Source: Rhodococcus sp. 105337
GTDB lineage: Bacteria > Actinomycetota > Actinomycetes > Mycobacteriales > Mycobacteriaceae
DNA length: 64,000 bases
Direction of reading: 5' to 3'
NCBI RefSeq assembly: GCF_012844225.1
Contig: NZ_JABAGQ010000001.1
Span: 682,001 to 746,000, forward strand
A program made the translations under genes and the position numbers. This document shows positions 49,153-64,000 of the stretch, piece by piece (positions within the stretch are counted from its first letter, which is position 1; each line of letters begins with the position of its first letter). Under the pieces are notes generated by a model. It was not told the origin of the DNA and made no database searches. It saw only the letters and a program-made list of their open reading frames with translations.

Positions 49153-50011
49153 CTTCTTCTCTTCCATTCGTATCCGGTTGTTGCCTCACGCCTGACGCAC
49201 CGGGCGCAGACTTCGCGGCGGCGGCGCCACCGATCGCCCAGCGACCGGTGAACCTCGCGTCCCGTTTCTCCGCGAAGGCGGCGAAAGCTTCGGGTGCATC
49301 CGCGGTGGCGAAATTGACCGCCTGTGCGCGGGCCTCCCCGGCAAGCGATTCACGGAGGGTGCGATCGGCCCCCTCGTTCAGCAGCGCCTTGGTCTGCGCG
49401 AGGGCCACCGGCGGCCCCGCGACGAGACGGCCGGCGAGGTCGTCGACGAACGCGTCGATCGTGTCTTCGGGCTCGACCCAGGTCACCAGGTTCAGCCGAT
49501 GGGCGTGTTCCGCGTCGATCGTCTCGGCGAGCAGAGCCAGCCTCTTGGCCTGTTGCAGGCCGACCAGCTTGGGCAACAGCCACGATCCGCCGAGGTCCAA
49601 CGACAGCCCGCGTCGCGAGAAGATCTGCGAGAACGTGGATCTCGGAGTCGCGACAACGAAGTCACACCCCAGCGCCAGATTCCATCCGGCTCCGACCGCC
49701 ACACCGTCGATCTTTGCGATGGTCGGCACCGGAAGCTCGTGCAGAAGCAATGCGATGTCGGTGAGGACACGCATCTTGCGCAAAGGGTGCGCCCGACCGG
49801 GATTGGACAGGTCGGCTCCGGAACAGAACGCGCCGCCGGCGCCGGTCACCACAAGCACCCGCACCTCGGGGTCCTGACCGGCCTCGTCCAGGGCATTGCG
49901 CAGCGCATCCCACAAACCGCTGTCGAGTGCGTTCTTGCGGGCGGGCCGATTCAGTGTCAGCGTCCGCACACCACCGCGATCGTCGACGAGCAGTGACTCC
50001 CCGGCCGTCAC
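49145..50011 (-). CDS. Crotonase-family isomerase/hydratase (PaaG-like active site)
   Basis: A 288-residue crotonase. The oxyanion segment is CSGADLSN. At the position of the first hydratase glutamate there is Asn (GAGWNLALG), and an Asp appears in LSLDLGGSW, the place of the catalytic Asp of PaaG-type isomerases. The likely reaction is double-bond or ring isomerisation of an enoyl-CoA. It overlaps the CaiB gene by 4 bp. Confidence 0.88.
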   Translation of the reverse strand: MTAGESLLVDDRGGVRTLTLNRPARKNALDSGLWDALRNALDEAGQDPEVRVLVVTGAGGAFCSGADLSNPGRAHPLRKMRVLTDIALLLHELPVPTIAKIDGVAVGAGWNLALGCDFVVATPRSTFSQIFSRRGLSLDLGGSWLLPKLVGLQQAKRLALLAETIDAEHAHRLNLVTWVEPEDTIDAFVDDLAGRLVAGPPVALAQTKALLNEGADRTLRESLAGEARAQAVNFATADAPEAFAAFAEKRDARFTGRWAIGGAAAAKSAPGASGVRQQPDTNGREEDA

Positions 50012-51264
50012 CGGTTCTGCCTCGCAGCCGATTCCGGGAACCGGTACGCGGGGCCGATTGCACCCTCCGCACGAAGTTTCTCGATCTGATCCGACCTGAA
50101 TCCGGCGTCGGCGAGCACCCGTGCGGTGTGTTCACCGAGGCCCGGAACAGCGCCCATCGGCGGGTCGAAGCCCGTGATCACCGGCGGTGGCAAGAGCGCG
50201 TCGATCGGACCGTTCGGCGAATCCACTTCGCGCCACCTGTCACGCGCCGTCAACTGGGGATGCACGAGTACTTCACTCGGCAGGTTGTATCGCGCGTTGC
50301 CGATCCCGGCCTCGTCCGCGACCTTCTGCACGTGGTCGAGCGGGTACTGTGCGCACCACTGCGAGATCGCCTCGTCGAGAACCGCCCTGTTCTCACATCG
50401 TCCGGTATTGGTGCGGAAACGCTCGTCGTCGGCGAGATCGTCACGTCCGATGATCTCGCGTGCGAGTCGCTGCCACTCCCGGTCGTTGGTCGTACCGAGC
50501 ACCACGGTCTGGTCGTCGGCCGTCCGGTACGCACCGTAGGGCGAGACCGCTGGTGAACTCATCCCGCGCGGTTGCTGATCCACACCCGAGTATCGCGTGT
50601 AGGTGAGCGGATATCCCATGATCTCGGTCATGGTGTCGAACAGACTCACGGACACCGAGGTCAGCGCCCCGGCACGTCCACGATGCCGTTCCCTTCCGCA
50701 CAGCAACGCGAGAATCGACACGGCCGCATACAGACCCGTGCTGATGTCGGCGACGGGAGGACCCGGTTTCGCCGGCATATCGGGGAAACCGGTCACCGCG
50801 CACGCGCCCGACTCCGCCTGCACGAGCAGGTCGTACGCGCGCTTGTGGGACAGCGGTCCGCCCTGGCCGTAACCGTCGATCTCTACAGCGATCAGATCGG
50901 GGTAGCGCTCCGCCAGCATTTCCCGCGAGATGCCCAGTCGCGCAGTGGCTCCCGGAGTGAGATTCGACACGAGTACGTCGGCACCGGCCAGCAGCGTGTG
51001 CAAGGTTGCGATTCCGGCGTCCGACTTCAGGTCGATCGTGACGGATTCCTTGCCCCGGTTCGCCCACACGAAGTGCGCGGCCATACCGTTGACGACGTCG
51101 TCGTAGTCGCGGGCGAAATCACCGCCCCGAGGATTTTCGATCTTGATGACCCGCGCCCCGAAGTCGGCGAGCGTGCGGGTACACATCGGCGCCGACACGG
51201 CCTGCTCGAGCGTCACGACCGTGACCCCCGACAGCGGGCCCTCCGGGCTCGTCGGGTCGGACAT
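50008..51264 (-). CDS. CaiB/BaiF CoA transferase
   Basis: A 418-residue class III CoA transferase, starting at 51264 (MSDPTSPEG) with TGATG coupling to the SDR. The typical segments are PLSGVTVVTLEQAV, VIKIENPRGGDFAR and the catalytic aspartate in HKRAYDLLVQAESG. It would activate the acid in this operon. It is a distant paralogue of the transferase at 18979-20184. Confidence 0.92.
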   Translation of the reverse strand: MSDPTSPEGPLSGVTVVTLEQAVSAPMCTRTLADFGARVIKIENPRGGDFARDYDDVVNGMAAHFVWANRGKESVTIDLKSDAGIATLHTLLAGADVLVSNLTPGATARLGISREMLAERYPDLIAVEIDGYGQGGPLSHKRAYDLLVQAESGACAVTGFPDMPAKPGPPVADISTGLYAAVSILALLCGRERHRGRAGALTSVSVSLFDTMTEIMGYPLTYTRYSGVDQQPRGMSSPAVSPYGAYRTADDQTVVLGTTNDREWQRLAREIIGRDDLADDERFRTNTGRCENRAVLDEAISQWCAQYPLDHVQKVADEAGIGNARYNLPSEVLVHPQLTARDRWREVDSPNGPIDALLPPPVITGFDPPMGAVPGLGEHTARVLADAGFRSDQIEKLRAEGAIGPAYRFPESAARQNR

Positions 51265-52031
51265 CACATCACCATGCCACCGTCTACCGGCAGCACCTGG
51301 CCGGTGACGAACGACGCGGCATCCGTGGCGAGGAACACGAAGGCACCAGCGACCTCCGAGGGCTCGGCCCAGCGCCGCAAAGGAATCCGGTTCAACATGG
51401 TCGCGGCGAACTTCTCGTTCGTGCGAATTGTCTCCGTCATCGGTGTCGCAGCGAGCGGGGCAAGCGCGTTGACGAGGATGTTCTTCCGCGCGAGCTCGCG
51501 TGCCAGTGACTTGGTCAATCCGATGATGCCGGCCTTCGCCGCCGAATAGTTCACCTGGCCGAGAGTGCCCGTGATTCCGGCGGACGAGGTGACGTTGATG
51601 ATGCGTCCGGTGCCGTCCGTGGCCAGGAAAGGAAGCGCTGCCTGCGAACACGTGAAGGCGCCGAGCACGTGGATGTCGTGGATGCGCTGGAAGGATTCGG
51701 TGCTCGTCTCCGCGAACATCGCGGGATCGGTGACACCGGCGTTGTTGACCAGAATGTGCAGGACGCCTTCGGTGAAGCCGGCGGCCCGCGCAGCCGCAGA
51801 GTCGGCGGCGGCCCGGTCGCGAACATCCAGTGCGGCACTGTCTGCCTTGCCACCGTTCTGCGAAATACGCTCGGCCACAAGCGCAGCCGCATCGCCGTCC
51901 ACGTCGGTGACGAGAACTGCCGCACCGGCCGCAGCGAGTGCCTCCGCCACCGCGGACCCGATGCCACCTGCCGCGCCGGTGACCAGCGCCGACCGTCCGG
52001 TGAGGTCGAAAAGGTTGTTCTTCTCCGCCAT
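51264..52031 (-). CDS. Short-chain dehydrogenase/reductase (3-oxoacyl/3-hydroxyacyl-CoA type)
   Basis: A 255-residue SDR with TGAAGGIGSAVA, NNAG in LVNNAGVTD, Ser in VTSSAGITG and the active tyrosine in NYSAAKAGI. It starts at 52031 after GAGGAG, with TGATG coupling to the dehydrogenase. It likely oxidises a 3-hydroxyacyl-CoA or an alcohol within this beta-oxidation set. Confidence 0.9.
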   Translation of the reverse strand: MAEKNNLFDLTGRSALVTGAAGGIGSAVAEALAAAGAAVLVTDVDGDAAALVAERISQNGGKADSAALDVRDRAAADSAAARAAGFTEGVLHILVNNAGVTDPAMFAETSTESFQRIHDIHVLGAFTCSQAALPFLATDGTGRIINVTSSAGITGTLGQVNYSAAKAGIIGLTKSLARELARKNILVNALAPLAATPMTETIRTNEKFAATMLNRIPLRRWAEPSEVAGAFVFLATDAASFVTGQVLPVDGGMVM

Positions 52032-53206
52032 CAGTAACTCCTCGGCAATCCCAAAACGTGTGAGCCCAGGAAGTTCAGGATCATTTCCTGGCTGATCGGT
52101 GCAATGCGCATGACGCGTGCCTCGCGGAAGTAGCGCGAGACGTTGTATTCCTCCGAATACCCCATGCCGCCGTGCGTCTGCAGAGCGCGGTCCGCAGCGG
52201 TGAATCCCGCATCGGCACAAAGATATTTCGCTGTGTTGGCTTCCCTGCCACACGGCTTTCCGTTGTCGTAGAGCCATGTTGCCTTGCGGAGCACCAGTTC
52301 TGCGGCGTCGAGCTGTGCCAGCGAATCCGCGAGGGGGAACTGGATGCCCTGGTTCATTCCGATGGGCCGGCCGAACACTTCGCGTTCGTTGCCGTACTTG
52401 ACGGCCTTGTCGAGCGCGACCCGCCCGATACCGAGGGCTTCGGCCGCGATGAGCATCCGTTCGGGGTTGAGACCGTCGAGGAGGTAGCGGAAGCCCTGGC
52501 CCTCTTCTCCGACGCGATCCTCGACCGGAATGTGCAGGTCGTCGATGAACAATTCGTTCGACGTGACGGCGTTGCGTCCCATCTTCCGGATGGGCCGGAT
52601 GTCGACCTTGCTGCGATCGAGGTCGGTCATGAACAGGGTCATGCCGTCGGTCTTCTTCTCGACCTCGTCGTAACGCTGGGTGCGAGTGAGCAGCAGGATC
52701 TTCTCCGACTCGGCCGCCTTCGAGATCCACACCTTGCGCCCGTTGACGACGTAGTGGTCGCCGACGCGCTTGGCGAACGTGGTGATCCGCGACGTGTCGA
52801 GCCCCGCACCCGGTTCGGTAACACCGAAACAGACGTGCAGGTCACCGTTCACGATGCGGGGCAGCGTCCGCGCCTTGAGTTCGTCGGACCCGTGCTTGAC
52901 CACGGGTTGCATACCGAAGATGTTCAGGTGGATGGCGCTTGCGGCGTTCATACCGCCCCCTGAACGCGCCACCTCCTCGAGCAGCAGGGTCGCCTCGGTG
53001 ATGCCGTATCCGTGCCCGCCGTATTCTTCGGGCATCGTGATGCCCAGCCAGCCGCCGTCGGCCATCGTCTTGTAGAACTCGGACGGGAACTCGTGGGCGA
53101 GATCCTTTTCCATCCAGTACTGGTCGTCGAACTTCTTCGTCAGTTCGGCGACCGACGATCGGATCAGTTCCTGGTCCTCGGTGAGATCGAAACTCATGCC
53201 TCCCAT
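52031..53206 (-). CDS. Acyl-CoA dehydrogenase family protein, usual catalytic Glu absent
   Basis: A 391-residue flavoprotein fold (FGVTEPGAGLDTS, NGRKVWISKA, QTHGGMGYSEEYN). The usual terminal Y-E-G-T motif with the catalytic glutamate is replaced by RIAPISQEM. The base may be elsewhere in the chain, or the enzyme may be non-standard. The start at 53206 (MGGMSF) follows AGGGGG. It is the first gene of a five-gene operon (dehydrogenase, SDR, CaiB, crotonase, thiolase). Confidence 0.88.
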   Translation of the reverse strand: MGGMSFDLTEDQELIRSSVAELTKKFDDQYWMEKDLAHEFPSEFYKTMADGGWLGITMPEEYGGHGYGITEATLLLEEVARSGGGMNAASAIHLNIFGMQPVVKHGSDELKARTLPRIVNGDLHVCFGVTEPGAGLDTSRITTFAKRVGDHYVVNGRKVWISKAAESEKILLLTRTQRYDEVEKKTDGMTLFMTDLDRSKVDIRPIRKMGRNAVTSNELFIDDLHIPVEDRVGEEGQGFRYLLDGLNPERMLIAAEALGIGRVALDKAVKYGNEREVFGRPIGMNQGIQFPLADSLAQLDAAELVLRKATWLYDNGKPCGREANTAKYLCADAGFTAADRALQTHGGMGYSEEYNVSRYFREARVMRIAPISQEMILNFLGSHVLGLPRSY

Positions 53207-53439
53207 GACTGCCCCCTCACGTCCGAGCCGCACGGCCGTGCGAGCGCGCGGGCATGACGGTAGTGCCGCGCAGTCTCCCGACAGCTTCGGAATTGTTCGG
53301 ATTCACCGATCTCGCGGTGACTGCGTACCTGGACGCTCACTTCGTGCCCTTCTGCGATTCGTGCACCGGCTGTGCACCGTTCCCGGGAATGTGCTCGACG
53401 GTTTTCGAGCACCACTTCGAACGCACCGACCCTGATCGG

Positions 53440-53751
53440 TCAGTCGGATGCCGGCAACGCCTGTGCCGACTTCACGACCATGGGAACCCCGGCGTAACTG
53501 AGTTCGCCTGCGCCCGGGGAAGTGCAGAGCACCTCGACCGTGTCGCCGGCGTCGACGTACCGCTTGCCGAGCAGCGTCCCGGTGCCGCTCGCCGGTTCCG
53601 ACGGCCGGCCGGGAGGTGCCGGGATCATGGCTTCTCCGCCGCAGGCGAACTCCTGCACGCCTTCCGAGGGAACCCGGACGACGACGATTCTCGTCGAGCA
53701 GGTGGTGCTGGCGAGCTGCTGACCGGGGCGGAGCGGTGAAGGTGTGGTCAC
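53440..53751 (-). CDS. Unknown 103-residue protein
   Basis: This gene is not recognised. It starts at GTG 53751 after AGAGAGGT. The N-half contains Thr-Cys-Ser-Thr and FACGGEAM, so two or three cysteines might bind a metal, and the C-half reads as short strands (DAGDTVEVLCTSPGAGELSY). No signal peptide. It is divergent from the CMD/Rieske operon, sharing the operator F/G region, so it may be co-regulated. The 233 bp after it (53207-53439) contain no gene that I can support. Confidence 0.6.
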   Translation of the reverse strand: MTTPSPLRPGQQLASTTCSTRIVVVRVPSEGVQEFACGGEAMIPAPPGRPSEPASGTGTLLGKRYVDAGDTVEVLCTSPGAGELSYAGVPMVVKSAQALPASD

Positions 53752-53897
53752 GGCGTACCTCTCTGTCGATCGCTCGGACACCGAGCGTGGGTTCTGCGAG
53801 TGCGCGAACATCCGGAAAGCCCGGGCCTGGGAGCCGCATTCCACGGCACCCCCGAGCACGAGCGGCACAGAGCAGCGGTTCGAGCAGCTCAATACGA

Positions 53898-53937
53898 GGA
53901 AACTATCTTCTCCTATCCGGAGAATCAACCTGTTCTC
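53898..53937. promoter_or_regulatory. Degenerate operator region, site F
   Basis: GGAAAC-TAT-CTTCTC (53898-53912) matches the operator family. It is followed by the perfect inverted repeat GGAGAA (53919-53924) / TTCTCC (53932-53937). The second element is not in the 3-nt centre form, so this is weak. The 382-bp region 53752-54133 holds this and site G but no gene. Confidence 0.35.
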
Positions 53938-54077
53938 CCGGCAAACACTCCTAAGCGGAGCGACCTCCTTTTTCAGACCTCGCGCGACGTGCGCGCGCGG
54001 GGGCAACCGTTCGACACCCCGGTGACCTGCGGATTCATCCGGTGAAACATGAGTGTTTGACACCTGGGGCGAGGCAT

Positions 54078-54113
54078 GGAAACCTATCGATCAGAAATGA
54101 GAATGTGATTCTC
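54078..54113. promoter_or_regulatory. Tandem operator pair, site G (CMD/Rieske operon)
   Basis: GAGAAT-GTG-ATTCTC (centre 54106) is a perfect match to the consensus. A half-good copy, GGAAAC-CTA-TCGATC, is centred 21 bp upstream at 54085. The gene start is at 54134, so the perfect copy is only 20 bp upstream of it. Confidence 0.65.
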
Positions 54114-54133
54114 CGAGAGGGAGGAGGCTGGGA

Positions 54134-54670
54134 GTGGTCCTGCTGCCCCCACTGCCGGCAGATCGATGGGACGACAAGGTCGATGCCGCTTTGAAAGGGC
54201 TCATGCCCCGGGATATGCGGAATCCGGAACGTGCAGGTGTCGCCATGGCGACGCTCGTGAATCATCCGGAACTGACGAAGGCATTCCTCGGGTTCAGTGT
54301 GCATCTGCTCTTCCGGTCCACGCTGCCGCCCCGCCTGCGCGAACTTGCCATCCTTCGTACCGCCCATCTTCACGAATGCGAGTACGAGCGTGAGCATCAC
54401 AAAGTCATTGCGGCGGCAGAAACCGACCTGACCGCAGACGAAATCTCCGCAGCGCTGGACGGCAGGTCGGACGATCCCTTCGAGAGCGCGCTGCTCGAGG
54501 CGGTCGACGAGCTACACGAGTCCTCGCGGATTTCCGAGCGGACATGGACGGCACTTTCAGCCCGTCTCGACACCAAACAACTCATGGACCTGATCTTCAC
54601 CGTAGGTGGCTACAGCCTGATGGCGATGGCGTACAACACCTTCGGTATCGAGTTCGAAGACGAAAGGTAG
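54134..54670 (+). CDS. Carboxymuconolactone decarboxylase/AhpD-family protein
   Basis: A 178-residue all-helical protein, GTG start 54134 after GAGGAGG. It contains the conserved LPPRLRELAILRTAHLHEC and YEREHHKVIAA segments, with single-cysteine ECEYEREHH in place of the redox CxxC of AhpD. The family includes decarboxylases, lactone hydrolases and oxidative-stress proteins. It is first in the Rieske operon; its last codons (from 54651) are included in the duplicated unit, and a copy of them lies before Rieske copy 2. Confidence 0.85.
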   Translation: MVLLPPLPADRWDDKVDAALKGLMPRDMRNPERAGVAMATLVNHPELTKAFLGFSVHLLFRSTLPPRLRELAILRTAHLHECEYEREHHKVIAAAETDLTADEISAALDGRSDDPFESALLEAVDELHESSRISERTWTALSARLDTKQLMDLIFTVGGYSLMAMAYNTFGIEFEDER

Positions 54671-56252
54671 AAAGCCTTGCCCCACTTCACCAAACCGGCC
54701 GAGGGAAGCTGGACCGAGCACTATCCCGAACTCGGTACCGCCCCGGTCGACTACACCGACTCCATCGACCCCGAATTCTTCGAAGCCGAACGCGAAGCCA
54801 TCTTCAAAAAGACCTGGCTCTACGTCGGACGCGTCGAACAACTCCCCCGCACCGGCAGCTACTTCACCAAAGAACTCCCCTCCGCCGGCCCCGGAACCTC
54901 CCTGATCATCGTCAAAGGCAACGACGGCAAGATCCGCGCCTTCCACAACGTCTGCCGCCACCGCGGCAACAAACTCGTCTGGAACGACTTCCCCCAGGAA
55001 GAAACCGCCGGCAGCTGCAAGCAGTTCACCTGCAAATACCACGCCTGGCGCTACAGCCTCGAAGGCGAACTGACCTTCGTCCAGCAAGAAGGCGAATTCT
55101 TCGACCTGGACAAGAAGGACTACGGCCTCAAAGACGTCCGCTGCGAAACATGGGAAGGGTTCATCTACATCAACCTCGACCCCAACGCCATCGCACTGGT
55201 CGACTACCTCGGCGACTACGCCAAAGAACTCGAAGGCTACCCCTTCGACAAGATGACCGAGGTCTACAGCTACCGCTCCGAAATCGGCGCCAACTGGAAG
55301 CTGTTCATCGACGCCTTCGCCGAGTTCTACCACGCACCGATCCTGCACATGAAGCAAGCGGTCAAGGAAGAAGCCGAAAAGCTCGCCGGCTACGGCTACG
55401 AGGCCCTGCACTACGACCTCCAGCCCCCGCACTCGATGATCTCCTCCTGGGGCGGCATGGCACCGCCGAAGGACCCCAACATGGTCAAGCCCATCGAACG
55501 CGCCCTGCGCTCGGGCCTGTTCGGACCCTGGGACAAGCCCGACATCGAGGGCCTCGACGAACTGCCCAAGGCACTCAACCCCGCCAACTTCCACAGCTGG
55601 GGCCAGGACAGCTTCGAGTTCTTCCCCAACATGACCCTGCTCATCTGGGAGCCGGGCTGGTACCTGACCTACAACTACTGGCCCACCGCTGTCGACAAGC
55701 ACATCTTCGAAGCAAGCCTGTACTTCGTCCCCCCGAAGAACGCCCGCGAGCGCCTCGCACAGGAACTCGCCGCAGTCACCTTCAAGGAATACGCCCTTCA
55801 GGACGCCAACACCCTCGAAGCCACCCAAACGATGATCGGCACCCGCGCGGTGACCGAATTCCCCCTCTGCGACCAGGAAATGCTCCTGCGCCACCTCCAC
55901 AAAACCGTCGCAGACTACGTCAAGGAGCACCGCGATGCCGCTGCCAACTGAGTTCTCCGACCTCGAGCCCTACGCCGACTGGGCCCTGGCCACCGAACCC
56001 GAGCGCTACGCCAAGCGCCTCGCCTCGACCATGCCCGAAATGCAGCAGTTCTACGACGCCGCCTTCGCACGCCTGGAAGACGCCATCACCTACTGCGACA
56101 AGTTCGACCTCGACGACCTGCCCGACGACGCACGCAGCCTCATGCACCTGATGCAGTCGCTGGTCATGGTCTCCTTCCCCATCGAAGTCTGGAAACAGCC
56201 CCGCGTCCCCGACAGCGGCGCCGCCTGGGCCACCATCACCAAAGAACCGGTG
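54651..56252 (+). repeat. 1,602-bp direct repeat, copy 1 (Rieske plus 107-aa gene)
   Basis: Bases 54651-56252 and 58766-60367 appear identical (offset 4,115 bp). Translations agree in the sense frame, a second sense frame and the antisense frame, which leaves no room for silent changes. Left edge: 54650 G versus 58765 A. Right edge: 56253 A versus 60368 G, followed by one more difference within the last codons. Confidence 0.95.
54677..55951 (+). CDS. Rieske non-haem iron oxygenase alpha subunit, copy 1
   Basis: A 424-residue ring-hydroxylating oxygenase alpha subunit. The Rieske centre is Cys93-x-His95 (CRHRG) and Cys119-x2-His122 (CKYH). The mononuclear iron site is His219 and His224 in AEFYHAPILH, with Asp376 in ALQDANTL. 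The start is TTG 54677. The only partner is the 107-residue gene downstream; no normal beta subunit, ferredoxin or reductase is adjacent. The substrate is unknown: KshA-type and biphenyl-type arrangements both differ. GAA and AAA codons look more frequent than in neighbours. Confidence 0.94.
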   Translation: MPHFTKPAEGSWTEHYPELGTAPVDYTDSIDPEFFEAEREAIFKKTWLYVGRVEQLPRTGSYFTKELPSAGPGTSLIIVKGNDGKIRAFHNVCRHRGNKLVWNDFPQEETAGSCKQFTCKYHAWRYSLEGELTFVQQEGEFFDLDKKDYGLKDVRCETWEGFIYINLDPNAIALVDYLGDYAKELEGYPFDKMTEVYSYRSEIGANWKLFIDAFAEFYHAPILHMKQAVKEEAEKLAGYGYEALHYDLQPPHSMISSWGGMAPPKDPNMVKPIERALRSGLFGPWDKPDIEGLDELPKALNPANFHSWGQDSFEFFPNMTLLIWEPGWYLTYNYWPTAVDKHIFEASLYFVPPKNARERLAQELAAVTFKEYALQDANTLEATQTMIGTRAVTEFPLCDQEMLLRHLHKTVADYVKEHRDAAAN

Positions 56253-56258
56253 ATCTGA
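55935..56258 (+). CDS. 107-residue protein coupled to Rieske oxygenase, copy 1
   Basis: A small acidic, mostly helical protein of unknown family. It overlaps the Rieske stop by 17 bp, so the two are translationally coupled. Residues 8-40 and 40-75 look like amphipathic helices with Trp, Met and Phe. It lacks cysteines for an Fe-S cluster apart from one, and has no signal peptide. A role as a small subunit or assembly factor of the oxygenase is inferred from coupling and co-duplication. The final residue is Ile (GTGATC context), where copy 2 has Val. Confidence 0.8.
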   Translation: MPLPTEFSDLEPYADWALATEPERYAKRLASTMPEMQQFYDAAFARLEDAITYCDKFDLDDLPDDARSLMHLMQSLVMVSFPIEVWKQPRVPDSGAAWATITKEPVI

Positions 56259-56280
56259 CCCCACCGCCGATGCCTGCAGC

Positions 56281-56338
56281 GCCCGCATCCGTGCACCGAC
56301 CCCATCGGGTCGGGGTACGGGTGCGGGCTTTTGTTGTT
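56281..56338 (+). terminator. Intrinsic terminator of the first Rieske unit
   Basis: A long GC stem (GCCCGCATCCGT ... ACGGGTGCGGGC, 56281-56328), with an inner CCGACCC/GGGTCGG stem, is followed by TTTTGTTGTT. It lies 22 bp after the stop of the small gene. Confidence 0.85.
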
Positions 56339-56381
56339 TGCCACAAATACTGGCGTCCTTTCTGATCATCCATAACAGAGT

Positions 56382-56411
56382 CCGAAATGTACGATAGCTC
56401 CCGAATTTCGG
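56382..56411. promoter_or_regulatory. Palindromic element upstream of the second P450 gene
   Basis: The 11-bp perfect palindrome CCGAATTTCGG (56401-56411) and a half copy, TCCGAAAT (56381-56388), lie 115-145 bp upstream of the P450 start. They do not match the GAGAAY family. The element could be an operator. The remainder of 56259-56525 holds a terminator but no gene. Confidence 0.35.
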
Positions 56412-56525
56412 AGTCAAGATCAACATGGTTGGATGTGGACCAGATCCTGGTCGGCTACCCGTCTTCCCGACAGTGGCCCCGGTTCCTCGCACCCCCGCAG
56501 CTCCACTTCTTCTGAGAGGAAGAAC

Positions 56526-57818
56526 ATGACCGAACTCGAGAAGCTGAACTTCTTCACCGACCCCTCCCTCGTGGGCGATCCGAGCCCGTACTACGACGCG
56601 ATGCGGGAAAGTTGCCCGGTCAAGCGCGAGCCGCACCACAACGTCATGATGGTCACGGGGTACGAGGAAGCCATCCAGGTCCTGAATGACGAAGAGACCT
56701 TCTCTTCGTGCATCTCGGTGACGGGCCCGTACTCGGGATTCCCCCTCCCCACCGACAGCGACGACATCACCGACCTGATCGAAGAGACGCGTCCCAAGCT
56801 GCCCATGAACGACCAGCTGCCGACGATGGATCCGCCGCAGCACACCGACCATCGCGCTCTGCTGATGCGCCTGATCACCCCGAAGCGCCTCAAGGAGAAC
56901 GAAGAGTTCATCTGGCGCCTGGCCGACAAGCTGCTCGACGACCTGCTGGCCAAGGGCTCGGGCGAGGTCATCAGCGAGTTCGCCGCGCCGTTCGCCATGC
57001 TCGTGATCGCCGACCTGCTCGGCGTCCCGGAGAGCGACCACCAGGAGTTCATCGAGGGTCTCAACCTGGTGATGAAGGACGGTATCTCGATCGGCAGCAC
57101 AGAGGGTACCGAGCTCAAGCTCAACCCCATGGAGTTCCTCTACCAGAAGTTCGGTGCGTACATCGAGGACCGGCGCGCCAACCCGCGGGACGACGTCCTG
57201 ACCGGTCTTGCCACCGCGACCTTCCCGGACGGCACGCTTCCGCCGGTCGACGACGTCCTGCGCATCGCGGCGAACGTCTTCTCCGCCGGCCAGGAGACCA
57301 CGGTCCGCCTGGTGAGCTCCGGGCTCCGCATCATCGCCGAGGACCCCGAGCTCCAGCAGACGCTGCGCGAAGATCCCGAGCGGATCAACAACTTCATCGA
57401 GGAGACGCTGCGCATGGAGAGCCCGATCAAGGGCGACTTCCGGCTCTCCAAGGTTCCGGCCGAGGTCGGCGGCGTCGAGGTTCCGGCGGGCACGATCATG
57501 ATGCTCGTGAACGGTGCCGCCAACCGCGACCCCCGCCAGTTCACCGACCCGGCCGAGTTCGATCTCGACCGCCGCAACGCGCGTACCCACATCGCGTTCG
57601 GTCGCGGCATCCACGCGTGCCCGGGCGCCCCGCTCGCTCGCACCGAGGCGCGGGTCGGCTTCGAGCGACTGCTCGAGCGGACCAGCAACATCACCATCTC
57701 GGAGAAGGTGCACGGCCCCGAAGGCGACCGCAAGTTCGACTACTTGCCCACCTTCATTCTTCGTGGTCTGCTCACCCTGAACCTGGACTTCACGCTCCCG
57801 GAAGCCGACGCGAAGTGA
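56526..57818 (+). CDS. Cytochrome P450 monooxygenase
   Basis: A 430-residue P450 with I-helix AGQETTVRL, ExxR in EETLRMES and the haem loop FGRGIHACPG with Cys near 365. ATG 56526 follows GAGAGGAAGAAC. It is followed with a GTGA overlap by its ferredoxin. It lies between the two Rieske copies but has its own promoter, so it may act on the same substrate at another carbon. No reductase gene is near. Confidence 0.95.
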   Translation: MTELEKLNFFTDPSLVGDPSPYYDAMRESCPVKREPHHNVMMVTGYEEAIQVLNDEETFSSCISVTGPYSGFPLPTDSDDITDLIEETRPKLPMNDQLPTMDPPQHTDHRALLMRLITPKRLKENEEFIWRLADKLLDDLLAKGSGEVISEFAAPFAMLVIADLLGVPESDHQEFIEGLNLVMKDGISIGSTEGTELKLNPMEFLYQKFGAYIEDRRANPRDDVLTGLATATFPDGTLPPVDDVLRIAANVFSAGQETTVRLVSSGLRIIAEDPELQQTLREDPERINNFIEETLRMESPIKGDFRLSKVPAEVGGVEVPAGTIMMLVNGAANRDPRQFTDPAEFDLDRRNARTHIAFGRGIHACPGAPLARTEARVGFERLLERTSNITISEKVHGPEGDRKFDYLPTFILRGLLTLNLDFTLPEADAK

Positions 57819-58003
57819 AGGTTTCCGTCGACGACGACTCCTGCCGCGGCCATGGCGTCTGTCTTGCTCTCTGCCCCGAGGTGTTCGATCTCAGCGACGG
57901 CGGGTACGCCGTGACCCTCGTGTCGGAAGTACCGGCCGAACACGAGGACTCGGTTCGCGAAGCAGCAGCAAGCTGCCCCGAACGGGCGATCACGCTCACC
58001 TGA
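57815..58003 (+). CDS. 3Fe-4S ferredoxin (CxxHxxC type) coupled to P450
   Basis: A 62-residue ferredoxin beginning at GTG 57815 inside the P450 stop (GTGA), too short and oddly placed for routine prediction. Ligand pattern Cys10-x2-His13-x2-Cys16, then SCPERA near residue 52. Close in form to the ferredoxin at 24434-24625. Coupling makes it the likely electron donor of the P450. Confidence 0.92.
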   Translation: MKVSVDDDSCRGHGVCLALCPEVFDLSDGGYAVTLVSEVPAEHEDSVREAAASCPERAITLT

Positions 58004-58021
58004 ACCACCTCTTTCGACGAT

Positions 58022-58060
58022 CGCCGTCAGCCCGGGCCCTCACGGCCGGGGCTGACGGCG
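58022..58060 (+). terminator. GC hairpin after P450/ferredoxin
   Basis: The arms CGCCGTCAGCCC (58022-58033) and GGGCTGACGGCG (58049-58060) are perfect over 12 bp. Only TTGT follows, so termination is plausible, not certain. The rest of 58061-58234 shows no gene. Confidence 0.45.
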
Positions 58061-58234
58061 TTGTACCGTGCGTGGGGACTGCCCCCAGTCCCGAGAGTCG
58101 TTGCACCCCTTGCACACCCGTCCTGATTCTGCTTCTCTTCGTCCATACAGGAATTCGTCGATATCCGATGATCGGGGCACCGCGTTCCGTCTCCTGAAAT
58201 CCCGGCGGGAGTTCCGCCACCGACAAGGAGAGTC

Positions 58235-58546
58235 ATGCCCAAGGGATATGTCGTCCTCACCGAAGTCATCAAAGATCCCGACGGGATGAACGCCTACAGC
58301 GCAGCCTCGGCCCGTTCGCTCGGCCGCGGTGGTGCATCCGTGCTCTCCGTAGACGCCCGCCCGACGATTCTGGAAGGTCAGTGGCACGGCGACCGGACGG
58401 TCGTTCTCGAGTTCGAATCCGTCGAGGCCGCCCAGGCGTGGTACGACTCGGAGGAATATCAGGCGGCAGTCCCTCTGCGCCACGCCGCTGCCGACACCAA
58501 CGCCGTCATCCTCGAGGGCTTCGAGATGCCGGCCCGCCCGTCCTGA
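58235..58546 (+). CDS. DUF1330 protein
   Basis: A 103-residue ferredoxin-like-fold protein of the DUF1330 family: GYVVLTEVIKDP at the N-terminus, RPTILEGQW in the middle, and LEFESVEAAQAWYDSEEY. The start ATG 58235 follows ACAAGGAGAGTC. Family members appear in many catabolic clusters, and their fold resembles dimeric alpha/beta barrel isomerases or monooxygenases, so a small accessory enzyme is possible. It is a single gene between two hairpins. Confidence 0.88.
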   Translation: MPKGYVVLTEVIKDPDGMNAYSAASARSLGRGGASVLSVDARPTILEGQWHGDRTVVLEFESVEAAQAWYDSEEYQAAVPLRHAAADTNAVILEGFEMPARPS

Positions 58547-58579
58547 ACGGCGGCACCCCACCCCGCGCTCCCTGTAGTC

Positions 58580-58609
58580 GTAGGCCCGGACCTCTCGGTC
58601 CGGGCCTAC
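58580..58609 (+). terminator. Hairpin after DUF1330 gene
   Basis: Perfect 13-bp arms GTAGGCCCGGACC (58580-58592) and GGTCCGGGCCTAC (58597-58609) with a 4-nt loop TCTC, 34 bp after the stop. Confidence 0.75.
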
Positions 58610-58659
58610 ATGCTTTCTCCCCGACGTCGAGTCGACCGTTGACGTGGTAGCGGTTGTGT

Positions 58660-58695
58660 GAAAATCTGATGCTCATGAATGAGAGCGTCATTCTC
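58660..58695. promoter_or_regulatory. Tandem operator pair, site H (second Rieske operon)
   Basis: GAAAAT-CTG-ATGCTC (centre 58667) and GAGAGC-GTC-ATTCTC (centre 58688) are 21 bp apart, about 100 bp before the second Rieske gene. The pair lies outside the duplicated DNA, yet the CMD/Rieske operon has its own pair, so both copies are under the same kind of control. Confidence 0.65.
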
Positions 58696-58765
58696 ATTCA
58701 AGAGATCACACAGCGGGTGCGATCGGGTTCCGGGTTGCGGGCAGATGGTTCCGCACACGGTGACA

Positions 58766-60367
58766 AGTTCGAAGACGAAAGGTAGAAAGCCTTGCCCCAC
58801 TTCACCAAACCGGCCGAGGGAAGCTGGACCGAGCACTATCCCGAACTCGGTACCGCCCCGGTCGACTACACCGACTCCATCGACCCCGAATTCTTCGAAG
58901 CCGAACGCGAAGCCATCTTCAAAAAGACCTGGCTCTACGTCGGACGCGTCGAACAACTCCCCCGCACCGGCAGCTACTTCACCAAAGAACTCCCCTCCGC
59001 CGGCCCCGGAACCTCCCTGATCATCGTCAAAGGCAACGACGGCAAGATCCGCGCCTTCCACAACGTCTGCCGCCACCGCGGCAACAAACTCGTCTGGAAC
59101 GACTTCCCCCAGGAAGAAACCGCCGGCAGCTGCAAGCAGTTCACCTGCAAATACCACGCCTGGCGCTACAGCCTCGAAGGCGAACTGACCTTCGTCCAGC
59201 AAGAAGGCGAATTCTTCGACCTGGACAAGAAGGACTACGGCCTCAAAGACGTCCGCTGCGAAACATGGGAAGGGTTCATCTACATCAACCTCGACCCCAA
59301 CGCCATCGCACTGGTCGACTACCTCGGCGACTACGCCAAAGAACTCGAAGGCTACCCCTTCGACAAGATGACCGAGGTCTACAGCTACCGCTCCGAAATC
59401 GGCGCCAACTGGAAGCTGTTCATCGACGCCTTCGCCGAGTTCTACCACGCACCGATCCTGCACATGAAGCAAGCGGTCAAGGAAGAAGCCGAAAAGCTCG
59501 CCGGCTACGGCTACGAGGCCCTGCACTACGACCTCCAGCCCCCGCACTCGATGATCTCCTCCTGGGGCGGCATGGCACCGCCGAAGGACCCCAACATGGT
59601 CAAGCCCATCGAACGCGCCCTGCGCTCGGGCCTGTTCGGACCCTGGGACAAGCCCGACATCGAGGGCCTCGACGAACTGCCCAAGGCACTCAACCCCGCC
59701 AACTTCCACAGCTGGGGCCAGGACAGCTTCGAGTTCTTCCCCAACATGACCCTGCTCATCTGGGAGCCGGGCTGGTACCTGACCTACAACTACTGGCCCA
59801 CCGCTGTCGACAAGCACATCTTCGAAGCAAGCCTGTACTTCGTCCCCCCGAAGAACGCCCGCGAGCGCCTCGCACAGGAACTCGCCGCAGTCACCTTCAA
59901 GGAATACGCCCTTCAGGACGCCAACACCCTCGAAGCCACCCAAACGATGATCGGCACCCGCGCGGTGACCGAATTCCCCCTCTGCGACCAGGAAATGCTC
60001 CTGCGCCACCTCCACAAAACCGTCGCAGACTACGTCAAGGAGCACCGCGATGCCGCTGCCAACTGAGTTCTCCGACCTCGAGCCCTACGCCGACTGGGCC
60101 CTGGCCACCGAACCCGAGCGCTACGCCAAGCGCCTCGCCTCGACCATGCCCGAAATGCAGCAGTTCTACGACGCCGCCTTCGCACGCCTGGAAGACGCCA
60201 TCACCTACTGCGACAAGTTCGACCTCGACGACCTGCCCGACGACGCACGCAGCCTCATGCACCTGATGCAGTCGCTGGTCATGGTCTCCTTCCCCATCGA
60301 AGTCTGGAAACAGCCCCGCGTCCCCGACAGCGGCGCCGCCTGGGCCACCATCACCAAAGAACCGGTG
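58766..60367 (+). repeat. 1,602-bp direct repeat, copy 2
   Basis: This is the second copy of the unit described at 54651-56252. It begins with a remnant of the CMD gene end (FEDER plus stop, 58766-58785) with no CMD gene before it, so this copy is the derived one. It ends within the last two codons of the small gene, joining directly to the amidohydrolase gene. Confidence 0.95.
58792..60066 (+). CDS. Rieske non-haem iron oxygenase alpha subunit, copy 2
   Basis: Identical in sequence to the copy at 54677-55951: 424 residues, TTG start, the same Rieske and mononuclear iron residues. The surroundings differ. It has a separate operator pair (58660-58695) and heads a run of genes: 107-residue partner, amidohydrolase, SnoaL-like protein and two acyl-CoA dehydrogenase subunits. 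Extra dosage or separate induction would be reasons to keep two copies. Confidence 0.94.
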   Translation: MPHFTKPAEGSWTEHYPELGTAPVDYTDSIDPEFFEAEREAIFKKTWLYVGRVEQLPRTGSYFTKELPSAGPGTSLIIVKGNDGKIRAFHNVCRHRGNKLVWNDFPQEETAGSCKQFTCKYHAWRYSLEGELTFVQQEGEFFDLDKKDYGLKDVRCETWEGFIYINLDPNAIALVDYLGDYAKELEGYPFDKMTEVYSYRSEIGANWKLFIDAFAEFYHAPILHMKQAVKEEAEKLAGYGYEALHYDLQPPHSMISSWGGMAPPKDPNMVKPIERALRSGLFGPWDKPDIEGLDELPKALNPANFHSWGQDSFEFFPNMTLLIWEPGWYLTYNYWPTAVDKHIFEASLYFVPPKNARERLAQELAAVTFKEYALQDANTLEATQTMIGTRAVTEFPLCDQEMLLRHLHKTVADYVKEHRDAAAN

Positions 60368-60373
60368 GTGTGA
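60050..60373 (+). CDS. 107-residue protein coupled to Rieske oxygenase, copy 2
   Basis: The same as the gene at 55935-56258 except for the last residue (Val rather than Ile), because the repeat ends within its final codons. It overlaps Rieske copy 2 by 17 bp and is 4 bp from the amidohydrolase start. The reading frame closed neatly at the junction, so the gene remains intact. Confidence 0.8.
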   Translation: MPLPTEFSDLEPYADWALATEPERYAKRLASTMPEMQQFYDAAFARLEDAITYCDKFDLDDLPDDARSLMHLMQSLVMVSFPIEVWKQPRVPDSGAAWATITKEPVV

Positions 60374-60377
60374 GCGC

Positions 60378-61589
60378 ATGCTGACACTGAAGGCGGCCGG
60401 ACTACTCGATGTAGACACCGGCGAGATCATCCGACCGGGCATCCTGCGCATCGACGGCGACCGGATCGTCGGTGTCGGCGGCGAACCGGAGGGCGAGGTC
60501 ATCGACCTCGGAGACCAGATCCTGATGCCGGGATTGATGGACATGGAAGTCAACCTGCTGATGGGTGGCCGCGGCGAGAAGCCCGTCTACTCCACCGTGC
60601 AGGACGATCCGCCGCTGCGCATGCTCCGCGCCGTGGGTAACTCGCGTCGCACGCTGCGTGCCGGTTTCACCACCGTCCGCAACCTCGGCCTGTTCGTGAA
60701 AACGGGTGGGTACCTGCTCGACGTGGCACTGGGCAAGGCGATCGACGCCGGCTGGGTCGACGGACCGCGCATCGTGCCCGCCGGCCATGCGATCACTCCC
60801 ACCGGTGGACACCTCGACCCCACCATGTTCGCCGCGTTCGCACCCGGTGTCCTCGAGCTGACGATCGAGGAGGGAATCGCCAACGGCGTCGACGAAGTCC
60901 GCAAGGCGGTCCGGTACCAGATCAAGCACGGCGCGCAGCTCATCAAGGTCTGCGTCTCCGGTGGCGTCATGTCGCACACGGGACTTCCCGGAGCACAGCA
61001 CTATTCCGACGAAGAACTCCGCGCCATCGTCGACGAGGCGCACCGCCGTGGACTCAAGGTCGCGTCCCACACGCACGGCGCTGACGCCGTCCGTGCGGCC
61101 GTTGCCGCAGGTATCGACTGCATCGAGCACGGCTTCCTCATCGACGACGACGCGATCGACCAGATGGTGCAGAACGGCACGTTCCTCGTGCCGACGACGC
61201 GGCTCGCCGACGCGATGGACATCTCCCACGCCCCGGCCGATCTCCAGGCCAAGGCAGCCGAGATGTTCCCCAAGGCACGCACTTCGGTGCTTGCCGCGTA
61301 CAAGGCCGGCGTGAAGATCGCGGTCGGCACCGATGCACCTGCCATACCGCACGGCAAGAACGCCGACGAACTCGTCGCACTCGTCGACCGCGGCATGCCG
61401 CCGCTGGCAGTCATCCAGGCGGCGACCATCAATGCGGCCGAACTCATCGACGTGGACGACCGCGGCCGTCTCGCCGAGGGCCTGCTCGCCGACATCATCG
61501 CCGTTCCCGGCGATCCCACCGAAGACATCACCGTCACCCAGAACGTGCGGTTCGTGATGAAAGGCGGAAAGGTCTATGTCAACAACTGA
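60378..61589 (+). CDS. Amidohydrolase-family (PF01979) protein with altered metal motif
   Basis: A 403-residue amidohydrolase-superfamily protein. The barrel layout is clear: N-terminal composite sheet, PGLMDMEVNLL where PGxxDxHxH normally lies, a lysine in LIKVCVSGG, histidines in ASHTHGAD and IEHGF, and the Asp in VGTDAPAIPHG. The first two metal histidines are Glu and Asn here, so at best a mononuclear site of changed chemistry remains. It may be a lyase, a decarboxylase or a non-metal variant. It overlaps the SnoaL-like gene by 14 bp. Confidence 0.88.
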   Translation: MLTLKAAGLLDVDTGEIIRPGILRIDGDRIVGVGGEPEGEVIDLGDQILMPGLMDMEVNLLMGGRGEKPVYSTVQDDPPLRMLRAVGNSRRTLRAGFTTVRNLGLFVKTGGYLLDVALGKAIDAGWVDGPRIVPAGHAITPTGGHLDPTMFAAFAPGVLELTIEEGIANGVDEVRKAVRYQIKHGAQLIKVCVSGGVMSHTGLPGAQHYSDEELRAIVDEAHRRGLKVASHTHGADAVRAAVAAGIDCIEHGFLIDDDAIDQMVQNGTFLVPTTRLADAMDISHAPADLQAKAAEMFPKARTSVLAAYKAGVKIAVGTDAPAIPHGKNADELVALVDRGMPPLAVIQAATINAAELIDVDDRGRLAEGLLADIIAVPGDPTEDITVTQNVRFVMKGGKVYVNN

Positions 61590-61992
61590 CGACCTGGTCG
61601 AGATCAATCAGCTTCTCGCGCGTTACGCGGTGAACATGACCAAGGGCGACGTCGACGGTGTCGTGTCCGTCTTCACCCCCGACGGCACCTACAGTGCGTT
61701 CGGCGACGCGTTCCCCCTCGACCAGTTCCCCGAACTGGTCGCGGCGGCCCCGAAGGGCCTGTTCATGACCGGCACGGCGCTGGTGGAACTCGAGGGCGAC
61801 ACCGCGACGGGGACGCAGCCCCTGTGCTTCGTCGATCACGCGACCCACGACATGCGGATCGGGTACTACAACGACACCTACGTCCGCACCGAGGACGGGT
61901 GGCGGCTCCGGACCCGGGCGATGACCTTCATGCGTCGCAGTGGCGCACACGATTCGGGCATTCCGCACGCATTCGAGCGGCCCTCGGCATGA
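61576..61992 (+). CDS. SnoaL/NTF2-like protein (polyketide cyclase or dehydratase fold)
   Basis: A 138-residue alpha+beta cone-fold protein: LVEINQLLARYAVNMTKGD at the N-terminus, VSVFTPDGTY, and the strand DTYVRTEDGWRLRTRAM. Members bind ring compounds and act as dehydratases, isomerases or small oxygenase partners. It starts at ATG 61576 inside the amidohydrolase gene and overlaps the next gene by 4 bp. An active-site Asp/His pair is plausible but not certain. Confidence 0.86.
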   Translation: MSTTDDLVEINQLLARYAVNMTKGDVDGVVSVFTPDGTYSAFGDAFPLDQFPELVAAAPKGLFMTGTALVELEGDTATGTQPLCFVDHATHDMRIGYYNDTYVRTEDGWRLRTRAMTFMRRSGAHDSGIPHAFERPSA

Positions 61993-63077
61993 ACGTGACC
62001 GAGTTCAGGGACGCCGTACGCGCCTGGCTCGACGAGAACGACCTCCGGCCCGGCCCAGATCATTCGTTCGACGCACAGGTCGAACAGCTGGGCCGGGTCC
62101 GGCGTGCGTTGTACGACGCCGGCTGGATGCGTTACGGATGGCCCGAGGCGGTCGGTGGACTCGGCGGCGACGCGATGCTGCGGGCAGTGCTCGGCGAAGA
62201 GGTCGCGACCCGCGACCTCGCCGAACCCGGCATCTACTCGATGATCGAAGTGCTTGCGCCCACGATGATCTCGTACGCCCGGCCGGAGCTTGCGGCCGAA
62301 ATGGTTCCGAAACTGCTTCGCGGCGAGGAACAGTGGTGCCAAGGGTTCTCGGAGCCGGGCTCCGGGAGCGACCTCGCGTCGCTGTCCACACGGGCGGTAC
62401 AGCGCGGCGACGAGTGGGTCGTCAACGGCCAGAAGGTGTGGACCAGTCTCGCGCAGTTCTCCTCCCGCTGTGTCCTGCTCACGCGGACCGCGCCCGGGCA
62501 CGGGGGCATCACCGCGTTCTTCGTCGACATGGATACCCCCGGGATCACTGTGCGTCCGCTGCGGACCATGCACGGGGTCGACGAGTTCGCGGAGGTGTAC
62601 TTCGACGACGTCGTCGTCCCCGCCGACCGCATGCTCGGTAACCCCGGTGACGGGTGGAAGCTCGCGATGGATCTGCTCCCGCACGAGCGGTCGACGTGCT
62701 TCTGGCATCGGATCGCGTACCTGTTCACCCGGCTGGATCGGCTGGTCCAGGAGACGGACTCGGCGTCCGACGACGAACTCGGCGCCGCGTATCTCGCGCT
62801 GCACACCGTGCGGAGCCGGTCGTACGAGACGCAGCAACGCCTCGCGTCGGGCGCACCGCTGGGTCCCGAGACCTCGGTCGACAAGGTCCTTCTCGCGACC
62901 GCGGAGCAGCAATTGTTCGACACCGCCCGCGACCTTCTTCCCGGTGTGATCGAACTGTCGGACGGGGAGTGGCGCACCGAATTCCTGTATTCGCGCGCAG
63001 CGACCATCTACGGCGGTACCGCCGAAATCCAGCGGAACATCATCGCGCGACGGCTGCTCGGATTGGGGACCGAATGA
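61989..63077 (+). CDS. Acyl-CoA dehydrogenase, FadE alpha-type subunit of a heteromeric pair
   Basis: A 362-residue dehydrogenase with GFSEPGSGSDLAS, NGQKVWTS and C-terminal IYGGTAEIQRNI, in which the usual EGT is GGT. The following gene encodes a shorter related chain, overlapping by 4 bp. Actinobacterial heterotetrameric FadE pairs (ChsE1-E2 type) for sterol or cyclic acyl-CoA have this arrangement. It may dehydrogenate a bulky side chain. Confidence 0.9.
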   Translation: MNVTEFRDAVRAWLDENDLRPGPDHSFDAQVEQLGRVRRALYDAGWMRYGWPEAVGGLGGDAMLRAVLGEEVATRDLAEPGIYSMIEVLAPTMISYARPELAAEMVPKLLRGEEQWCQGFSEPGSGSDLASLSTRAVQRGDEWVVNGQKVWTSLAQFSSRCVLLTRTAPGHGGITAFFVDMDTPGITVRPLRTMHGVDEFAEVYFDDVVVPADRMLGNPGDGWKLAMDLLPHERSTCFWHRIAYLFTRLDRLVQETDSASDDELGAAYLALHTVRSRSYETQQRLASGAPLGPETSVDKVLLATAEQQLFDTARDLLPGVIELSDGEWRTEFLYSRAATIYGGTAEIQRNIIARRLLGLGTE

Positions 63078-63892
63078 CGACGTACAAGACCGCCCGGCCG
63101 AATGCGGCGGCGCTGGATCCCGAACTGGGTCTCCTGGCTGATGCGCTGCGGAAGACCATGGAGACCACCACCGGTGCCGCGCTCGATGCGGCACTCGTGG
63201 AACTCGGCTGGCCGGAAATGCTCGCCGAGATGCCGGAAGTGGCGATACCTCTCGTATTCGGGCTACTCGGGGAGACGGGTGCGCATGCACCCGTCGTCAA
63301 CGATGTCGTACTCGCCGAGGCAGGCTCCGGCATCGGTACCACCGTGCCGTTGCCCTACACCGGTAACCGGTGGATCGAGTGGTCCCGTCACGACCGGGAC
63401 ACCGAGGCTCTCGACGCCGAACTTCCTGTCGCCGTGGTGGAGTCCGGAAGCTCGATACCGGTGTCCGCCGGGCGACGGGCGCTCGGCTGGTGGCTGGTCG
63501 GTACGAGCCGGGCGATGCTGGACCTGGCCCGTACCCATGCACTCGACCGCACCCAGTTCGGCAAGCCCATCGCGGGTTTCCAGGCGGTGCGGCATCGGCT
63601 CGCGGAAACCTTCGTCGCCATCGAGGGCGCCGAGGCCACGCTGCATGCGGCCACCGACGACCTGGGCTCACTGCTCGCGAAAGCTGCGGCCGGCCGGGCC
63701 GCGATCCTCACCGCGCGTCATTGCCAGCAGGTCCTGGGCGGTATCGGATTCACCGCCGAGCACGACCTGCACCGGCATATCCGGCGCGCGCTCGTGCTCG
63801 ACGGCATGCTCGGCAGTTCCCGGGAGCTGACCCGGGAGGCCGGTGCCATCATCCGTGCCGGTGGGTCAGCGCCCCGTCTCGTCAACCTCTGA
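63074..63892 (+). CDS. Acyl-CoA dehydrogenase-like beta subunit
   Basis: A 272-residue chain, clearly shorter than normal FadE. It keeps the flavin-side segment RTQFGKPIAGFQAVRHRLAE and the LGGIGFTAEHDLHRHIRRA C-terminal helix, but lacks a complete N-terminal domain. This is the pattern of the partner chain in heteromeric FadE pairs. Shared active sites with the preceding chain are inferred. It is the last gene of the Rieske copy 2 run. Confidence 0.86.
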   Translation: MTTYKTARPNAAALDPELGLLADALRKTMETTTGAALDAALVELGWPEMLAEMPEVAIPLVFGLLGETGAHAPVVNDVVLAEAGSGIGTTVPLPYTGNRWIEWSRHDRDTEALDAELPVAVVESGSSIPVSAGRRALGWWLVGTSRAMLDLARTHALDRTQFGKPIAGFQAVRHRLAETFVAIEGAEATLHAATDDLGSLLAKAAAGRAAILTARHCQQVLGGIGFTAEHDLHRHIRRALVLDGMLGSSRELTREAGAIIRAGGSAPRLVNL

Positions 63893-63924
63893 AACACCGA
63901 CCTGCATCCCGGTCCGGCGAGGGA

Positions 63925-64000
63925 TCATGCCTTGGCCGGATCGGGATGGTTGGAGAACCACAGGCTTTCCTCGGTGAGCCGGCAACTCTTCCATCCGTCG
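63925..64000 (-). CDS. C-terminal end of an unknown gene, cut by window edge
   Basis: The minus strand is open from the window edge to a TGA at 63925-63927, giving the last 24 residues, ending FSNHPDPAKA. It is convergent with the preceding gene and 32 bp from it. The residues look like normal protein, but the family cannot be told. Confidence 0.4.
   Translation of the reverse strand, partial: DGWKSCRLTEESLWFSNHPDPAKA

Follow-up and report, generated by a model that had tools for sequence, protein, structure and literature searches.

A twin Rieske oxygenase unit in Rhodococcus, probably held identical by gene conversion, with silent sites skewed toward A and C

We analysed a 64,000-nucleotide stretch of the genome of Rhodococcus sp. 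105337 (contig NZ_JABAGQ010000001.1, positions 682,001–746,000; hereafter the window), in which a two-gene unit encoding a Rieske oxygenase occurs twice. This unit, referred to as X, is a 1,602-bp repeat consisting of the gene for a Rieske oxygenase alpha subunit and an overlapping gene for a 107-amino acid protein (P107). The copies lie at 54651–56252 (copy 1, X1) and 58766–60367 (copy 2, X2) in direct orientation, at an offset of 4,115 bp and, like all features of this locus given below unless stated otherwise, on the plus strand. A first-pass annotation had described them as an exact twin, and comparison of the copies bears this out, with 0 mismatches over 1,602 bp; the whole 4.46-Mb assembly of the window genome (G000) holds these two copies and no third. 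It had also stated that differences begin immediately at both edges, which is true, as identity drops at once to chance level, and the edges can be placed more precisely. On the left, the repeat begins within the final codons of the gene upstream of copy 1, a CMD-family gene (54134–54670; PF02627, 5.4e-11) whose last 20 bp are inside the repeat, and a 20-bp remnant of the CMD 3' end (58766–58785) forms the left edge of copy 2. On the right, it ends in the last sense codon of P107 (ATC versus GTG), the TGA stop being common to both copies. Family scans of the scanned genes found no transposase in the window, and inverted repeats of at least 30 bp are absent from 50000–64000, in line with the first reading of the sequence. 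We rejected a transposon- or insertion sequence-borne duplication on these grounds and because the edges are the tail of a coding sequence and a stop codon; a mobile-element origin of the twin in general was likewise rejected, there being no plasmid match either.

The gene order at the locus is CMD, X1, hairpin, P450, ferredoxin, DUF1330, promoter P', X2, amidohydrolase, SnoaL, and acyl-CoA dehydrogenases. The Rieske gene of copy 1 (54677–55951; PF00355, 1.6e-13; PF00848, Ring_hydroxyl_A, 2e-35) has a TTG start, encodes 424 amino acids, and overlaps P107 (55935–56258; C terminus ..EPVI) by 17 bp. Their counterparts in copy 2, assigned by identity to copy 1, lie at 58792–60066 and 60050–60373 (P107 C terminus ..EPVV). 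Between the copies are a terminator-like hairpin 3' of copy 1 (CCCGCATCC..GGGTGCGGGCTTTTG, 56278–56335; read from the sequence, with a hairpin at the same position in sister genomes), a cytochrome P450 gene (56526–57818; PF00067, 7.2e-24), a gene for a single-cluster 4Fe-4S ferredoxin (57815–58003; PF13459, 5.7e-17), and a gene for a DUF1330 protein (58235–58546; PF07045, 7.9e-28). The amidohydrolase gene (60378–61589) follows copy 2 after a 4-bp gap, and the same P107-amidohydrolase joint is present in loci L037, L039, L040, and L042.

The Rieske protein passes the gathering scores of both of its families (50.8 versus 20.3 bits for PF00355 and 123 versus 24.9 bits for PF00848), and its sequence places it broadly among the alpha subunits of Rieske ring-hydroxylating oxygenases. 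The best-scoring relatives of the Rieske half are CntA/GbcA-type Rieske monooxygenases (carnitine monooxygenase, 5.5e-31; GbcA model NF058607, 5e-37), from which X differs in that the match spans only residues ~28–226 and in having a 107-amino acid partner outside known families. We rejected an identity as GbcA glycine betaine monooxygenase because the score of 127.3 bits is far below the curated 670-bit cut-off of NF058607. P107, a small and uncharacterised partner of the Rieske oxygenase, had no family match in Pfam or NCBIfam, but almost every relative has it adjacent to the Rieske gene. Genes for acyl-CoA dehydrogenases, enoyl-CoA hydratases, a thiolase, and a CoA-transferase-like protein surround the twin, and X probably acts as the limiting oxygenase in a pathway of CoA-thioester catabolism.

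Each copy belongs to an operon with an operator-like site. Promoter P, before CMD, contains the palindrome TGAGAATGTGATTCTC (54099–54116), which relatives have at the same position, and promoter P', before copy 2, contains TGAGAGCGTCATTCTCA (58681–58697). Palindromes TGAGAATNNNATTCTC are present in both operons, which are therefore probably induced together, and are repeated elsewhere in the window. Those of the form GAGAATNNNATTCTC occur at 6165, 21859, 42605, 54099, and 58681 of the window and at 3359, 4145, and 9622 of locus L044; this type recurs across the catabolic region and before related genes in relatives. One TetR-type regulon probably extends over the cluster. The literature on the operator motif and the gene cluster yielded nothing usable.

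The first-pass annotation had attributed the perfect identity to a very recent event or to gene conversion and had suggested comparison with related strains; we compared the locus with those of relatives, the named ones among which place the window in Rhodococcus. Of about 80 named actinobacterial loci, most have only one X, which follows CMD and precedes the amidohydrolase gene. Four Rhodococcus sisters (G004, G006, G008, and G017) have the order CMD, X, hairpin, P450, ferredoxin, P', amidohydrolase and no second X, i.e. the promoter of the second copy is kept and the copy itself is absent. As both inner flanks are present in the sisters, the flanks must predate the split of the lineages. Directly before the amidohydrolase, the sisters carry GATGAAAGGACGAGCG-ATG, which resembles the ribosome-binding region of X2 (GACGAAAGG) joined to the post-stop GAGCG and is suggestive, though only that, of a deletion scar left by the second copy. 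In Rhodococcus sp. HM1 (G007), the order is X, hairpin, P', CMD-tail remnant, gutted second copy, amidohydrolase. The gutted copy (L038, 11100–11240) is an open frame in which Rieske residues 1–11 run straight into the final codons of P107; over its first 33 nt it matches the intact X1 of that genome exactly, and the stretch 5' of it is homologous to the P' of the window (score 34 versus a shuffled maximum of 19). We read this remnant as a second copy that has lost its inside, in the same place and behind a homologous P'. Further, two contigs of G001 end within X, as an unresolved twin would give, which points indirectly to a twin in this genome as well.

These comparisons bear on the possibility that the duplication is very recent and confined to the strain, X having been inserted between an existing P' and the amidohydrolase with no time to diverge. 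The absence of any difference over 1,602 bp, the sharp edges, and the position of P' directly before the amidohydrolase in the sisters are what such an event would leave. We nevertheless consider it quite unlikely, because the joint between copy 2 and the amidohydrolase is the ancestral one, found in other species, because G007 has its gutted second copy behind a homologous P', and because near-identical pairs of X exist in two other genera (described below). Moreover, about a third of the fourfold sites differ between X of the window and X of the sisters, compared with 0 of 1,602 positions between the window copies; copies that had evolved apart since the sister split could not be identical. 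Thus, of the two causes originally proposed, gene conversion, acting on an older duplicate, is favoured by the relatives, namely the degenerate copy in G007, P' in the sisters, and the twins in the other genera, and a very recent event is not.

The two further twins came from searches of 401 genomes of the family, which gave G282, and of 152 genomes of a third genus, which gave G501. G282, of another genus and assembled in 3 contigs, has X twice, 6,157 bp apart and with 1 mismatch in 1,580 bp (99.94%). G501, of the third genus and a single contig, has X twice, 61,052 bp apart and 100% identical over 1,632 bp. A fourth two-copy genome was looked for in the g50 genus (397 genomes) and in the order (399 genomes), and none was found. 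The two G282 copies enclose a diverged X' unit as well as P450, ferredoxin, DUF1330, and CMD; upstream of the left copy lie an operator-like site and a CMD tail (..FGIAAEHEHENER, then the stop) that has diverged from the intact CMD of the same genome. In G501, an intact CMD precedes one X; the other X occupies its usual position downstream of the CMD promoter and operator, where only the tail of CMD survives, and the two copies have promoters that have diverged from each other. All three genomes are alike in that a promoter-CMD-X unit is doubled, most of CMD is gone from one duplicate, and X is intact and identical, or nearly so, in both. The repeat of G282 and G501 runs exactly to the P107 stop codon, and that of the window ends within the preceding codon, as would be expected if the coding unit alone is maintained and its flanks drift. 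As side observations, G282 has a third, diverged Rieske-P107 unit (L167, 9246–10850; 53% amino acid identity, normal codon use) directly 3' of the left twin, and in Frankia loci L062 and L066, X is followed by a similar diverged Rieske-P107 unit and DUF1330.

Within a genome, the copies of X are 100% (G000), 99.94% (G282), and 100% (G501) identical, compared with at most 93% identity to X of any other genome, and in trees they pair by genome, the three two-copy lineages not forming one clade. The paralogues of one genome are therefore closer to each other than to orthologues elsewhere, as in concerted evolution. Further, the G007 remnant, P' in the sisters, the CMD tail in G282, and the diverged promoters in G501 each indicate a duplication older than the identity of the copies implies. 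The segments enclosed by the copies differ greatly between genomes (2.5 kb in the window, 4.6 kb in G282, and 59 kb in G501), which would suit a Campbell-type integration, in which circular DNA carrying X entered the resident X by a single crossover and the same happened in other lineages with different inserts. This route is very improbable in our view: in every case one copy is preceded by a CMD remnant, an outcome not given by a single crossover, copies of different origin would be identical only after later conversion, and no plasmid in the collection has a close copy of X.

The silent sites of X set the two-copy genomes apart. Fourfold-site A+C on the coding strand reaches 0.83 in X of the window, 0.95 in X of G282, and 0.98 in X of G501. 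The mean is 0.548 (standard deviation 0.063, maximum 0.75) for 110 other Rieske homologues, with a few genomes counted twice because they occur in two collections, and 0.53 for neighbouring genomic genes. G501 had been expected in advance to show both identical copies and the skew, and both were seen on reading it. In its X, A is the last base of 64 of the 67 codons for Glu, Lys, and Gln (GAA 30/32, AAA 22/22); in X of G000, GAA accounts for 29 of 39 Glu and AAA for 9 of 27 Lys codons, and in EF-Tu of G000, for 3 of 36 and 1 of 23, respectively. The next-highest values among the homologues (0.72–0.75) are those of G007, G009, and G013, which represent the Rhodococcus lineage that retains a second-copy remnant, or its close kin, and the X fragment of G001 has 0.80. 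Within the two-copy genomes, the skew is confined to X: it spans the Rieske gene and P107 and fades at their edges, and CMD, P450, DUF1330, and the amidohydrolase are of normal composition. In samples of more than 300 genes from each genome, fourfold A+C outside X peaks at 0.69 in G501 and 0.75 in G282. EF-Tu of the same genomes prefers GAG, AAG, and CAG, tolerates T, and has no A/C skew. The direction of the skew was taken from pairwise comparisons of living sequences. When G282 is compared with its single-copy genus mate G261, third positions of X differ by 54:2 (G/A), 35:1 (T/C), and 73:4 (G/C), and those of the amidohydrolase by 15:14, 21:27, and 31:32. First and second positions lean likewise in G501 versus L180 (44:13, p=5e-5; amidohydrolase, 22:16) and weakly in the other two lineages (G000 and G282).

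We think it probable that the twin is an old duplication of a regulated unit in which the Rieske gene and P107 have been held identical by gene conversion, the likely benefit being dosage or presence in two operons. The unit that was duplicated would have comprised promoter/operator, CMD, Rieske oxygenase, and P107; one duplicate would then have lost most of its CMD, with the P450-ferredoxin-DUF1330 module lying between the duplicates. X would have been kept in both operons, P-CMD-X1 and P'-X2-amidohydrolase-SnoaL-acyl-CoA dehydrogenases, which appear to have the same kind of operator-bearing promoter, and would have been homogenised by RecA-type recombination between the direct repeats, the conversion tract being bounded where homology ends, at the CMD tail on the left and the P107 stop on the right. 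Gene conversion would be the simplest cause of the identity. As to the benefit, which like the regulator we infer, it may lie in a higher dosage of X or in having X in both operons; with the P450 module between the copies, the downstream operon would stay under its own promoter.

Several points weigh against this interpretation. First, the single-copy order CMD-X-amidohydrolase is the rule, so that one ancient duplication common to all would have to have collapsed many times; independent duplications in three genera, each followed by conversion, are equally compatible with the data. Second, P and P' of the window are alike only weakly (score 16, shuffled maximum 16), and X of the window, at 0.83, is less strongly skewed than X of G282 and G501. 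The small number of two-copy lineages, three in all, is what chiefly weakens the link between twin and skew. Third, the G000 assembly, of 34 contigs, yielded no 16S rRNA gene and therefore looks like a short-read assembly with repeats collapsed, and short reads resolve an exact 1.6-kb repeat poorly and can smooth small differences away. An assembly of this kind could have placed one real copy twice or merged two differing copies into one consensus, but we find such an artefact hardly credible. The four junctions (CMD-X, X-P450, P'-X, and X-amidohydrolase) recur in relatives, some of them in assemblies of one to three contigs; G017, a single contig, has the linear order CMD-X-P450-ferredoxin-P'-amidohydrolase, and the single-contig genome G501 has the same kind of twin. 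Since all four junctions are seen in other assemblies, mis-assembly is unlikely.

Several causes of the skew could be set aside. The codon preferences of EF-Tu in the same genome differ from those of X, and the skew is therefore not ordinary, EF-Tu-like translational codon adaptation. Horizontal spread of a single A/C-coded X was rejected because the protein tree puts X of G000 among its Rhodococcus sisters and X of G501 with Nocardia-type sequences; as the tree separates the three two-copy lineages, the skew is convergent. An operon composition linked to transcription was rejected because the amidohydrolase, 4 bp after P107 of copy 2, is unskewed, and pure transition pressure because many third-position G-to-C differences do not fit it; transitions and transversions are not clearly separated at first and second positions. 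Two causes are possible, selection for unstructured mRNA and a strand-biased process linked to recombination, and the data do not decide between them. To the first, i.e. mRNA or codon selection for high output (C, else A, and hardly G or U) in lineages that also doubled the gene, we would give, for the skew alone, a little under an even chance. Consistent with it, the mRNA is predicted to fold less strongly in two-copy genomes (−0.25, −0.29, and −0.34 kcal/mol/nt versus −0.37 to −0.45), folding of the antisense strand is little altered, and CTA, ATA, GTA, and ACA remain rare, so that C, not A, replaces G in fourfold boxes. Such selection is harder to reconcile with EF-Tu using GAG/AAG/CAG and tolerating T, with none of the more than 300 genes sampled in G501 and in G282 coming near X, and with the asymmetry at first and second positions. 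The second cause, which we regard as rather unlikely, is that recurrent strand-biased recombination between the copies writes the skew and leaves a lasting signature of past or present conversion; conversion would either favour A and C on the coding strand or expose the template strand to C-to-T and A-to-G damage. The literature on a link between skew and conversion yielded nothing usable.

Identical gene twins in bacteria are usually dismissed as fresh duplications or assembly noise. Catabolic gene pairs on one chromosome, catIJ and pcaIJ of Acinetobacter, are reportedly kept near-identical by DNA exchange; those are other genes, and the pair serves two pathways, whereas X is one unit repeated within one cluster. 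Concerted evolution is known for duplicated bacterial genes such as tuf and, in Nitrosomonadales, amoCAB, haoAB, and cycAB, with in-genome copies closer than the orthologues of other species, as we see for X; amo, too, is a key pathway oxygenase in several copies, and gene conversion is the accepted cause of such identity (PMC6053082). The list of 26 genes in that source includes no Rieske oxygenase, silent-site skew is not mentioned in the parts of it considered here, and X differs from the genes treated there in that its twins occur in few species of a mostly single-copy family. Duplicated catabolic operons are also known from Rhodococcus, for example the duplicate phthalate operons of DK17 and the naphthalene genes of R. 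opacus M213 (PMC4988695). They resemble X in genus, in encoding ring-hydroxylating oxygenases, and in being catabolic duplications but lie on different replicons or genomic islands (PMC4988695), whereas X is a two-gene unit within one cluster, with exact edges and no mobile element seen. As far as our search reached, a twin recurring in three genera and the tight link between a homogenised twin and near-total A/C at silent sites are new. The X twin appears to be maintained rather than recent, with G and T nearly purged from its silent sites, unlike those of single-copy relatives. If selection drives the skew, it would reveal an unusual codon or mRNA optimum not shown by EF-Tu; if recombination does, the skew would be a readable strand-specific scar of conversion that could be searched for in other homogenised genes. 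Either way, X offers a clean natural system to test how bacteria keep gene copies identical.

Very long open antisense frames run over both Rieske genes of the window (54557–55930 and 58606–60045, minus strand), because the third-position skew leaves no TTA, CTA, or TCA codons; we judged them a by-product of the skew rather than evidence of genes and rejected an antisense gene as a target of selection. In G501, two adjoining genes with no Pfam match (L208, 12620–14248, minus strand) have A-ending Glu, Lys, and Gln codons at frequencies of 0.96 and 0.71, and their fourfold A+C is only 0.68–0.69. Elsewhere in the window, an exact inverted repeat of about 29 bp lies at 29054–29082 and 33422–33450, 4.4 kb apart.

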